In this document: one piece after another, positions 28,013-62,207 of the stretch | How the letters are laid out: each line of letters starts with the position of its first letter | Numbering within the stretch: position 1 is the first letter of the stretch | Origin: Methanocella arvoryzae MRE50 | GTDB taxonomy: Archaea; Halobacteriota; Methanocellia; Methanocellales; Methanocellaceae | DNA: 64,000 nt | Assembly: GCF_000063445.1 (NCBI RefSeq) | Contig: NC_009464.1 | Coordinates: 2,790,001 to 2,854,000, forward strand | Reading direction: 5' to 3' | The notes under the pieces: model-generated | What the model saw: only the letters and a program-made list of their open reading frames with translations | What the model was told of the DNA's origin: nothing | Databases searched by the model: none | Translations under genes and position numbers: made by a program

Positions 28013-29443
28013 ATGGTTAATTTAGTCAAGGTCAGAGAAGATATCTACGAACTGCCGATAGACTCCAAACCCGGAATGCTGGTCCCGGGGAGGATATTCC
28101 TGTCCGATCTGCTGGTCAAAGACCTGGAGCAGGACGCGATCCAGCAGGTGGCTAACGTTGCCACGCTGCCCGGTATTCAGAAGTACTCCATGGCCATGCC
28201 AGACGCCCACGTCGGCTATGGCTTCCCCATAGGTGGCGTCGCCGCGTTCGACATGGAAAATGGAGTGATAAGCCCCGGCGGGGTAGGCTTCGACATCAAC
28301 TGCGGCGTCCGACTATTACGTAGTCCGCTGCGATTCGAGGACGTGCAGGGCAAGACTGACGCCCTCATCGACAGCCTCTACCGGGAAGTGCCATCCGGCG
28401 TGGGCTCGGAGTCGAAGTTCCGGGCCTCCGAGGACGTCCTCACCCAGGTGTTCAACCACGGCGCCCGGTGGGCGGTAGAGAACGGCTACGGGGTGAAAGC
28501 CGACCTGGAGCACTGCGAGGAGAACGGCGAGATGAAGGGCGCCGACTCGGCAAAAGTATCCCGGAAAGCCCGGGACCGGGGCAAGCCTCAGCTCGGCACG
28601 CTCGGCAGCGGCAACCACTTCCTCGAGATCCAGCACGTGGAGAAGATCTACGACGAAGCTGCGGCAAAGGCTTTCGGCCTCGAGGAAGGCGGCATCACAG
28701 TCATGATCCACTGCGGCTCCCGGGGTGCCGGCCACCAGATCTGCACTGACTACGTCCGGACGCTCGAGCAGGCTTCCCGCAAGTACGGCATCAAGCTCGC
28801 CGACAGACAACTGGCCTGTGCCCCGCTGACCTCAAAAGAGGCACAGGACTACTTTGCGGCGATGGCCGCCGGTGCCAATTACGCCTGGGCAAACCGCCAG
28901 ATGATCTCCCACTGGGTCAGGGAAGCCTTCAACAAGCAATTCCACACCGACCTGAAGATGGACCTCGTCTACGACGTAGCCCACAACGTGGCCAAGTACG
29001 AAGAGCACACGGTCGACGGCGAGAAGAAAAAACTCTGCGTCCACCGCAAAGGCGCCACCAGGGCCTTCGCACCCGGCAGGCCGGAACTGCCCGCCACGTA
29101 CCGGGACATCGGCCAGCCCGTGATCATCCCGGGCAGCATGGGCAGCGCCTCCTACGTCCTCGTGGGAGCGCAGGGCGCCATGGAGATGACCTTCGGCAGC
29201 ACCTGCCACGGCGCAGGCAGAGTCATGAGCCGCTCTGCCGCCAAGAAAGAGGTCCACGGCAACGAGATCAAGCGCGAGCTCGCCGAGCGGGGCATCATCG
29301 TCAAGGCCCCCAGCGCCGCAGCGATCTCCGAAGAGGCCCCCGAAGTTTACAAGGACATAGACGAGGTGGTCGAAGTAGTGCACAGGCTGGGTATCTCCCG
29401 AAAGGTCGCCCGGCTCGTGCCGCTGGCAGTGGCCAAAGGATAA
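28013..29443 (+). CDS. rtcB: RNA-splicing ligase RtcB
   Basis: GTP- and Mn-dependent ligase that joins 2',3'-cyclic phosphate and 5'-OH ends, sealing tRNA exons after intron removal. It is 476 residues with no intein. Visible are the metal-site Cys in DINCGV (residue 97), [26 protein letters not shown] and the guanylated His in STCHGAGR (His399). It is encoded directly after archease. The tRNA-Ile and tRNA-Tyr genes with introns in this window are natural substrates once cut by the splicing endonuclease. Confidence 0.96.
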
Positions 29444-29498
29444 GGGAGATATACAACAGTCAAAGCAATTCTCGGCGACAGACCCCCTTGTACTTAAT

Positions 29499-29576
29499 TC
29501 GCAAGGGCGCAACGACGCAACGACGCAAAGACATATCAATAAAACTTTGCGTCGTTGCGCCTCTGCGACTTTGCGA
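29499..29576 (+). repeat. Long inverted repeat of GCAACGAC/GCAAAG units
   Basis: Left arm 29499-29530 and right arm 29545-29576. The inner 15 bases (29516-29530 and 29545-29559) pair perfectly around a 14-base AT-rich loop. Each arm is itself built from repeated CGCAACGA and CGCAAAG-like words. It lies between convergent rtcB and a minus-strand gene; it may be a bidirectional terminator or one copy of an interspersed palindromic repeat. Confidence 0.85.
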
Positions 29577-29610
29577 TTTAAAACCGAGGCCTCCCGGGGC
29601 CGAGAATATC

Positions 29611-30255
29611 TCATTTTTTCTTCTTGCTTATGCACCGGCCTCTCCGCAGCTTACGGGAGTACCGGTGTAATGCTGTCTCAAGCCGGACCCTGTCGATCCT
29701 GTGGTCGCGGGCATACTGTCGGATGTCGCCTATTCCCAGCGCCTTTGCTGTTTCCTTCTCTCTGGGCGTGGGTTCGGGGTCTGCCCTGGGCCAGACTGCC
29801 TGCATGTCCCGGAGAAACACTGAGACTGTTACGGGGCCGATGCCTTTGCCCAGGGCTTTGATGCGTTCCTCCAGGTCACGGCTGTCTGTGGCAGCGGCAT
29901 ACAGGCGGCTGAACTTGCCGTCGTACTGCTGCTGCAGCGTGCTAAAAATTGCGATCAGCCGGTCTGCGGTGCTTTCGTCATACCTGACGTAGCCGCCTTC
30001 GTCCAGCAGTCGTACCAGCAGGTCCCGGTCGATGCTTGCTATGGCGGCGGCGCTGGTCAGGCCGCTGGCTACCAGCGTCCGATAGGTCTCGGCTGCGGAG
30101 TCCTCCTGAATTGGCTTCGCGTAGAGAAATGCAGCCAGAAACCACTTCAGCCATTCAGGGTCTCCCCGCTTCAGGTCGATCCCGAGTATCGATGAATAGG
30201 GCTCGCCCATTTCCTGAATGATCTTCTCTACCTCAACTGCGCCGGCCATACACAT
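29611..30255 (-). CDS. Helix-hairpin-helix DNA-glycosylase-like protein
   Basis: Protein of 214 residues with a helix-hairpin-helix motif (KALGKGIGPVTVSVFLRDMQ, about residues 137-157) typical of the endonuclease III superfamily and a helical N-terminal half. The C-terminus is very basic (SRKLRRGRCISKKKK). The [4Fe-4S] cysteine cluster of Nth is absent and the lysine of Nth-type lyases is not evident, so this may be a catalytically different or non-catalytic member. The frame starts at a TTG at 30288, but a TATA-like GATAATAG there favours the ATG at 30255. Confidence 0.65.
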   Translation of the reverse strand: MCMAGAVEVEKIIQEMGEPYSSILGIDLKRGDPEWLKWFLAAFLYAKPIQEDSAAETYRTLVASGLTSAAAIASIDRDLLVRLLDEGGYVRYDESTADRLIAIFSTLQQQYDGKFSRLYAAATDSRDLEERIKALGKGIGPVTVSVFLRDMQAVWPRADPEPTPREKETAKALGIGDIRQYARDHRIDRVRLETALHRYSRKLRRGRCISKKKK

Positions 30256-30299
30256 ACTGTTCACTGGCAGGCTAAAAACTATTATCAAAATAAGGAGCT

Positions 30300-31226
30300 T
30301 CAGGCTTCCGGTTCCCTGTCGATCTTTACCCGCTTCTTAAGTTTGCAGGCCTGACAGACGCCCTGGATGCCCGGCTCCCCGCAGACCTCGCAATTATGCA
30401 GGGGTACCTGGGGGTATTTTTCCTTTAAGCAGTCGATCATGTTCTCGAACCCGCTCAGGACGGAGTACTTCGTGCCCGGATGCCTGGCTTCGAAGTCGTT
30501 GAGCATGTCCTTGATCTCGCCCCGGAACGATTCGCTGGTGTACGGGCATTCGCCCATGTAGAACGGCAGCTTCTTCAGGAATGCGTAAAGTGCGATCTCC
30601 TTCTCCGGCACGTCGATCAGCGGCTTGATCCTGGGGATCAGCCCTTCCTGGGCTCTTGAGGGCCTTAATCTGGCGAGACGCTCGACGTCTCCGTTCATGA
30701 CGTTCAGCAGGACTACCTGTGCCTCGTCGTCTAGATTGTGGCCTGTGGCGAGCTTGTTGGCGCCGATCTCTCTCGCCTTCCTGTTCAGCAAAGTACGGCG
30801 GAAGACGCCACAATAGGTGCAGGACGCTTCCTTGCGCTCCCGGCTGAGGATGTCGTCCAGCGTGTGCCCGATCTCTTCCTTGAACGAGACGACGTAGTGG
30901 GGCACGCCCAGGCGGTCGCAGAGCTCTTTCGCGTACGGGATCGACTCGTTCCGGTAGCCTTCGATGCCCTCGTCGACAGTGATGGCGGAGAATTTGATGT
31001 TAGACCTGGTGGTGAACGTGTCTACCAGTATGGAAAGGGTGACAGCGCTGTCCTTGCCGCCGCTCATAGCCACGGCTATGTGATCGCCTGGCTTCGCCAT
31101 CCTCTCCTTCCGCATCCTGCGCTTGATCTTCCGCTCTACGTCGGCGACCTCGTGGGGGCCGCAAAGATGCATCCCGGAGTACCTCTGAAATATGACCGCT
31201 TCCCGGTTGCACTTATCGCACTTCAT
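30300..31226 (-). CDS. tRNA 2-thiolation protein (TtuA/NcsA type)
   Basis: Cytosolic ATP-dependent tRNA thiolase of 308 residues in the TtuA/Ctu1/NcsA family. The PP-loop SGGKDS is at 55-60. N-terminal zinc ligands are at C3, C6, C22 and H25; a central CTYC pair is expected to hold the catalytic iron-sulfur cluster with a later cysteine; a C-terminal CEVC...CQAC zinc finger closes the protein. Substrate base is uridine 34 or 54, which the sequence does not settle. It sits just beside the tRNA-Ile pair and 2 kb from RtcB, a local tRNA-maturation neighbourhood. Confidence 0.88.
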   Translation of the reverse strand: MKCDKCNREAVIFQRYSGMHLCGPHEVADVERKIKRRMRKERMAKPGDHIAVAMSGGKDSAVTLSILVDTFTTRSNIKFSAITVDEGIEGYRNESIPYAKELCDRLGVPHYVVSFKEEIGHTLDDILSRERKEASCTYCGVFRRTLLNRKAREIGANKLATGHNLDDEAQVVLLNVMNGDVERLARLRPSRAQEGLIPRIKPLIDVPEKEIALYAFLKKLPFYMGECPYTSESFRGEIKDMLNDFEARHPGTKYSVLSGFENMIDCLKEKYPQVPLHNCEVCGEPGIQGVCQACKLKKRVKIDREPEA

Positions 31227-31337
31227 TGCGGGGTAATGATCACATACGGGTTTTATATACCTGTCGTACTCAGGCGTGTAAACATGTGCTTTCGCCCATA
31301 ACTTTTATGTAGTAGTAGTACCTTTTACAGAGATGTC

Positions 31338-31433
31338 GGGCCCGTAGCTTAGCCAGGTCGGAACTGCTCAAAAGCAGCGACAAGCGCTCGGCTGATAACC
31401 GAGAGGTCCTGCGTTCAAATCGCAGCGGGCCCA
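31338..31433 (+). tRNA. tRNA-Ile (GAT), copy 1, with intron in the D-arm
   Basis: Acceptor GGGCCCG/CGGGCCC, anticodon loop CTGATAA giving GAT, T-loop TTCAAAT. The 96-base gene is 21 bases too long. Removing 31363-31383 restores an ordinary 75-base tRNA with a normal D-arm. The insert and its flanks fold into a bulge-helix-bulge, so it is read as an intron between about positions 23 and 24, not at the canonical site 37/38. Copy 2 at 31549-31644 is identical. Confidence 0.93.
31363..31383 (+). other. Non-canonical 21-base intron in tRNA-Ile copy 1
   Basis: Central helix GTCG (exon) with CGAC (intron); 3-base bulges GAA and AAG on opposite strands; inner helix CTGC/GCAG with a TCAAAA loop. Cleavage after the second base of each bulge removes exactly 21 bases. 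The outer exon helix is weak. Read from sequence only. Confidence 0.8.
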
Positions 31434-31548
31434 TCATCTCACGACGGAAAAATATTGAGCTCGTTATCCTGCCTTTTACCATGAATCGCTACACATATCG
31501 TGCTGTATCATGCAAGGAAGGGCAAGGGATAAATGAGCAGGTCATTCA

Positions 31549-31644
31549 GGGCCCGTAGCTTAGCCAGGTCGGAACTGCTCAAAAGCAGCGACAAGCGCTC
31601 GGCTGATAACCGAGAGGTCCTGCGTTCAAATCGCAGCGGGCCCA
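31549..31644 (+). tRNA. tRNA-Ile (GAT), copy 2, with intron in the D-arm
   Basis: Identical in all 96 bases to the copy at 31338-31433, 115 bases downstream, with unrelated 5' flank. The intron is at 31574-31594. Two identical copies argue against a sequencing error in the insert and for a recent duplication or gene conversion. Confidence 0.93.
31574..31594 (+). other. Non-canonical 21-base intron in tRNA-Ile copy 2
   Basis: Same 21 bases and same bulge-helix-bulge fold as in copy 1. Confidence 0.8.
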
Positions 31645-62112: not shown

Positions 62113-62207
62113 TCCCGTCCCCCGAATTTGAATCGGGGACCTGTCGGTTTCCGCAGTCGTATTAAGGTCTACAGCCGACCGCTCTGACCAGGCTGAGCTA
62201 GGACGGG
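62113..62207 (-). tRNA. tRNA-Tyr (anticodon GTA) with a 20-base intron at 37/38
   Basis: Acceptor CCCGTCC/GGACGGG, with C1-G72 as expected for archaeal tRNA-Tyr, D-arm GCTCAGCCTGGTCAGAGC, anticodon loop CTGTAG...A. The insert at 62149-62168 fits a BHB: CTGT pairs with GCGG (two wobbles), bulges AGA and AAA. Splicing gives a normal tRNA. Confidence 0.92.
62149..62168 (-). other. Intron of tRNA-Tyr
   Basis: Twenty bases at the canonical 37/38 position, cut after the second base of each 3-base bulge. Exact ends are inferred from the BHB fold. Confidence 0.8.

Follow-up and report, generated by a model that had tools for sequence, protein, structure and literature searches.

Both tRNA-Ile(GAT) genes of the rice-field methanogen Methanocella arvoryzae MRE50 are interrupted in the D-arm by the same 21-nt insert which, as judged from sequence comparison, is a real, conserved and structurally constrained non-canonical tRNA intron, and whose removal is probably the work of a kind of enzyme believed unable to handle such introns. 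The genes lie on the forward strand of the window (the whole 64,000-nt stretch of DNA that was analysed) at 31338..31433 (copy 1, anticodon GAT at 31394-31396) and 31549..31644 (copy 2, anticodon at 31605-31607), are identical at 96/96 nt, and each match Rfam RF00005 with 60.7 bits. The insert, ACTGCTCAAAAGCAGCGACAA, occupies 31363..31383 in copy 1 and 31574..31594 in copy 2, between tRNA positions 23 and 24, and taking it out leaves a 75-nt tRNA-Ile(GAT) with a normal cloverleaf, as for a tRNA intron of the BHB class. The original prediction, of two identical 96-base genes that carry a 21-base insert at about 23/24 and give an ordinary tRNA-Ile(GAT) once it is deleted, is thus confirmed by the sequence, the Rfam matches and the cloverleaf. 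Reading the boundaries one base earlier gives the same product; the 23/24 placement comes from every relative and from a cut rule, derived from canonical 37/38 geometry, by which each 3-nt bulge is cleaved ahead of its third base. Cuts under this rule would excise exactly 21 bases, as had also been proposed, and the comparison of four families lends strong support to an intron with these boundaries. A group I intron does not fit the insert, which is 21 nt long and lies at a site where Rfam matches tRNA only.

In the predicted fold (coordinates of copy 1, forward strand), the exon sequence GTCG (31357..31360, holding G19-G21) pairs with CGAC in the intron (31378..31381) to form a central helix with pairing probabilities of 0.99-1.0. 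This helix is flanked by the 5’ bulge GAA (31361..31363, predicted cut 31362/31363), a 3-nt bulge in every relative, and by the three bases AAG on the 3’ side (31382..31384, predicted cut 31383/31384), while the intron itself closes as the hairpin CTGCT-CAAA-AGCAG (31364..31377). Together, the central helix and the 5-bp inner helix CTGCT/AGCAG reach probabilities of 0.85-1.0, which bears out the GTCG/CGAC helix and the GAA and AAG bases of the original prediction but lengthens its inner helix by one base pair. The outer helix, previously described as weak, is absent: no helix closes the 3’ bases, and the single candidate pair, G18-C25, has a probability of 0.0 in M. arvoryzae and of at most 0.05 in every sequence folded. 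The 4-bp central helix, 3-nt bulges and inner helix are those of the BHB class, but a strict BHB (hBHBh’) would have an outer helix closing the 3’ bulge. Since that helix is missing, the 3’ site falls in an open loop, and the motif, with one bulge and helix, is a bulge-helix-loop (BHL), which is classed as a relaxed BHB (PMC2237900, PMC6379350).

When the 21-mer was shuffled, the central helix with at least four inner pairs arose in place in 17 of 2,000,000 shuffles and with five inner pairs in none. Across nine distinct loop-free cores, two of them (L086 and L096) from records outside the four families, 72/72 cells were paired and 5/8 pairs showed changes on both sides, with a covariation score of 0.667 as against 0.04-0.16 for slid partners. 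Because these sequences are few and related, shuffle counts are not to be read as probabilities, and the control with slid partners is fairer. Exon and intron change together between families at pair 3 of the central helix (C-G and U-A) and at pair 4 (G-C and U-G), and a compensated T-A to C-G change is found in the inner helix within the Methanocellaceae, whose cores fold with probabilities of 0.97-1.0 over seven tested pairs. For f2 and f16, two other carrier families, thermodynamics does not favour the weak A-U/G-U central helix (0.01-0.09), which counts against our main explanation.

Comparison with the tRNA-Ile genes of related genomes, which had been suggested as a check, found an insert at the same site in all four Methanocellaceae genomes and in three further families. 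A pattern search of 393 Halobacteriota genomes, which misses introns longer than its gap or with diverged exons, detected it in 18, belonging to exactly four families: Methanocellaceae (4/4), f2 (7/7), f16 (4/4) and f12 (3/5, the other two, G051 and G076, giving no tRNA-Ile(GAT) match in this search). Three of the 21 pattern matches (G035, G038, G287) were not tRNA-like and were dropped, and an uninterrupted tRNA-Ile(GAT) was read directly in families f3, f5, f6, f8, f10, f14, f19, f20, f21, f23, f24 and f26. A class-level search returned the four Methanocellaceae genomes only, the other three carrier families lying outside their GTDB class; the distribution of the intron thus spans more than one class of the GTDB taxonomy. 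Named records with the same sequences include Methanocellales MAGs, UBA148, Met33H, and bog, fen and SPRUCE MAGs.

Among carriers the stems and cut sites are kept and the loops vary. The four Methanocellaceae introns measure 21, 22, 25 and 26 nt, with the same stems and differing loops; overall the lengths range over 16-34 nt, with constant 3-nt bulges and cut-site bases. The same splice rule yields a normal mature tRNA in all relatives read whole, except for one f16 gene with a second intron. Two f16 loci, L278 (G027) and L280 (G082), carry besides the D-arm intron a second insert of more than 100 nt at about 37/38, just 3’ of the anticodon, and their tRNA-Ile(GAT) thus reads as a two-intron tRNA gene in an alpha’2 lineage.

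Shared by related archaea with matching base-pair changes, the insert looks like a real and old intron, and the comparison identifies it as ancient and maintained. It would have been inherited vertically from an ancestor of at least the Methanocellaceae, and is probably common by descent to this family and its three neighbours. Against the single origin alone stands the possibility that the D-arm introns were gained independently or by transfer, which we regard as somewhat unlikely. An EF-2 tree leaves the carrier families disunited, placing Methanocellaceae, f2 and f12+f16 apart, weakly, and a similar intron occurs at the same site in a DPANN genome; yet site, tRNA and splice geometry are all shared, and a single carrier clade is not rejected on EF-2 (p-AU 0.10), a marker that alone does not resolve these families. 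The DPANN intron (L086, from the Aenigmatarchaeota MAG G403) is 16 nt long and reads GTTG GAA GAT-TAA-ATC CAAT ATG, and the sole PF01974 match of that genome lies in a 199-aa frame. The other record from outside the four families, L096, comes from a MAG labelled Desulfotomaculum and is probably misbinned archaeal DNA. Many further matches in L068-L125 (Bathyarchaeota, Nitrososphaeria, Vulcanisaeta and others) have tRNA-Ile(GAT) inserts apparently elsewhere in the D-arm or in the anticodon stem, and were not counted as the same intron.

Introns at non-canonical sites led the original prediction to expect a broad-specificity, heterotetrameric splicing endonuclease, an expectation that failed. 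EndA is encoded in the genome by one open frame, in which PF01974 and PF02778 each occur twice, and there is no second PF01974 gene. Its closest PDB matches are the alpha’2 EndA of A. fulgidus (1r0v/2gjw), and motifs read by eye place the Tyr, His and Lys triad in the C-terminal repeat, the N-terminal repeat lacking the His. The enzyme lacks a Crenarchaea-specific loop, nothing being inserted between FYG and the helix that follows; the third PDB match, 3p1y, apparently an A. fulgidus EndA into which a loop was engineered, aligns with a gap over that loop (FYGNPMDDRRLQLSLVE in Methanocella as against 26 residues in 3p1y). The same short loop is found in aligned carrier and non-carrier relatives, and in the Halobacteriota carriers searched a single frame holds two EndA domains, with the exception of G402, where the match ends at a contig edge. 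With neither a heterotetrameric or three-unit EndA nor a CSL/ASL loop, the intron does not belong to the class served by (alpha-beta)2 or epsilon2 enzymes. The genome encodes the ligase RtcB as well as EndA, as expected for a BHB-class intron: rtcB, a candidate for joining these exons, lies on the forward strand at 28013..29443 (PF01139, 612.8 bits), and is near the tRNA-Ile gene in 4/4 Methanocellaceae. In the same four genomes an Ncs6/TtuA-like tRNA thiolation gene also accompanies rtcB (28013-31226 for the pair) beside the interrupted genes; in f2, f12 and f16, with one genome examined per family, neither was found within about 6 kb of tRNA-Ile.

EndA architecture and tRNA intron site are a standard example of RNA-protein co-evolution. 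A review restricts the alpha4 and alpha2 enzymes of Euryarchaeota to canonical BHB motifs, a point that counts against our main explanation, and, among archaea with an alpha2 enzyme, credits Korarchaeum alone with non-canonical introns (PMC4033280), a statement to which the carrier lineages are exceptions. Euryarchaeal tRNA genes are elsewhere described as having one BHB intron only, at the canonical position (PMC4090602), with three thermophilic methanogens allowed as exceptions (PMC3218864). Short introns off 37/38, with a 4-bp central helix, a 3-nt bulge, an inner hairpin and an exact cut rule, are shared with the relaxed-BHB introns (BHL, hBH, HBh’) of Crenarchaeota, Thaumarchaeota, Nanoarchaeum and ARMAN, whereas here the host is Halobacteriota, the enzyme an alpha’2 EndA without CSL, and the intron confined to one tRNA and one site in several families. 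The strict BHB introns at 37/38 of euryarchaeal tRNAs have the central helix and bulge geometry in common and presumably use the same enzyme, but there the anticodon stem serves as outer helix, whereas none forms at 23/24. Korarchaeum cryptofilum likewise combines a homodimeric EndA with non-canonical introns (PMC4033280), though its enzyme has a specific loop linked to broad specificity which that of Methanocella lacks. Methanopyrus kandleri and Methanothermobacter share non-canonical or multiple introns in methanogens but, unlike Methanocella, are thermophiles, and M. kandleri EndA is (alpha-beta)2 (PMC6379350).

A BHL can be cleaved by homodimer or heterotetramer enzymes (PMC2237900), and the A. 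fulgidus alpha’2 EndA is able to excise introns of BHL form from position 37/38 of full-length pre-tRNA (PMC6379350). Together with the cutting of a minimal BHB at 30 C by a Ferroplasma homodimer (PMC8707768), this makes native cutting by the Methanocella EndA plausible without a new factor. What is new appears to be the place of the intron, a loopless alpha’2 lineage of at least four families, and with incomplete literature coverage an earlier description is possible. A conserved intron without outer helix, in an apparently sole essential tRNA gene of cultured methanogens with a loopless alpha’2 EndA, offers a direct natural test of the rule tying non-canonical introns to (alpha-beta)2, epsilon2 or loop-bearing enzymes. 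If such an enzyme does natively process this intron, that rule would be wrong for this branch, and enzyme specificity would have changed by a different route.

Gene, motif, conservation, covariation and enzyme genes were computed, and from them we infer the cutting, the joining and the acting enzyme. Each tRNA-Ile gene would be transcribed as an interrupted pre-tRNA, in which the end of the 5’ exon (G19-G21) and the 3’ part of the intron would form the 4-bp helix beside the 3-nt bulge and the intron hairpin; the single alpha’2-type EndA would then cleave 3’ of A23 and 5’ of G24, and the exons would be joined by RtcB into an ordinary tRNA-Ile(GAU). We hold this explanation as a whole, vertical inheritance of the intron included, with high confidence, and lean towards the broader proposition that a loopless alpha’2 EndA natively processes a BHL intron in the D-arm of an essential tRNA in several archaeal families. 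Cutting by another enzyme or a helper is improbable: alpha’2 enzymes are described as narrow and the motif lacks an outer helix, but the genome has no other PF01974 gene, the carriers searched keep the same two-domain EndA apart from the contig-edge match, and another nuclease would leave the exact 4-bp/3-nt geometry unexplained. The hairpin is predicted to be stable by itself and might persist in the mature tRNA, lengthening its D-arm, which we consider very improbable, because the central helix takes up G19-G21, exon bases that the D-arm and elbow require, and because the variable length with constant bulges and cut-site bases is that of a splice substrate. That both genes are pseudogenes, with AUC/AUU codons served by another tRNA, is scarcely credible. 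Such a view could draw on the two identical copies and on copy 2, which lacks a conserved upstream block; however, relatives whose only copy of the gene is interrupted have intact, conserved exons, and no third or uninterrupted tRNA-Ile(GAT) was found when the complete genome was searched by anticodon-arm pattern (up to 3 mismatches), by BLAST with the mature tRNA, and by Rfam with ARAGORN run on the 50 tRNAs matched. The insert-free third gene that was to speak against splicing was, in these searches, not encountered.

The duplication is particular to M. arvoryzae, the other three Methanocellaceae genomes giving one match each. The upstream block, CATAACTTTTATGTAGTAGTA, precedes copy 1 at 31297..31317 (forward strand) and has a similar counterpart ahead of the one gene that relatives possess; it is likely a promoter, and is absent before copy 2.

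Default ARAGORN missed both tRNA-Ile genes in the window and, with introns allowed, misplaced the intron into the anticodon loop, so euryarchaeal introns of this kind may be under-reported. It also missed, on the window, a tRNA-Tyr(GTA) at 62113-62207 on the reverse strand, whose intron occupies the canonical position. A 2011 table lists 54 tRNAs for MRE50, five of them intron-bearing, and 48 for M. paludicola, four intron-bearing; tRNAscan-SE is among the tools used in that paper (PMC3146512), as is the screen for BHB introns of Sugahara et al. 2007. Five versus four fits two tRNA-Ile versus one, plus three others, and the tRNA-Ile introns were thus probably counted then and, within the part available, not discussed. 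Four intron-bearing tRNAs were seen by us in the genome (two Ile, Tyr, and a Met with an intron of canonical 37/38 type); tRNA-Trp, sought as the fifth, gave no pattern match and none clear among the 50 Rfam matches. The genome also has five tRNA-Cys(GCA) genes (L026, L027, L028, L137, L138), several of them mutually diverged.
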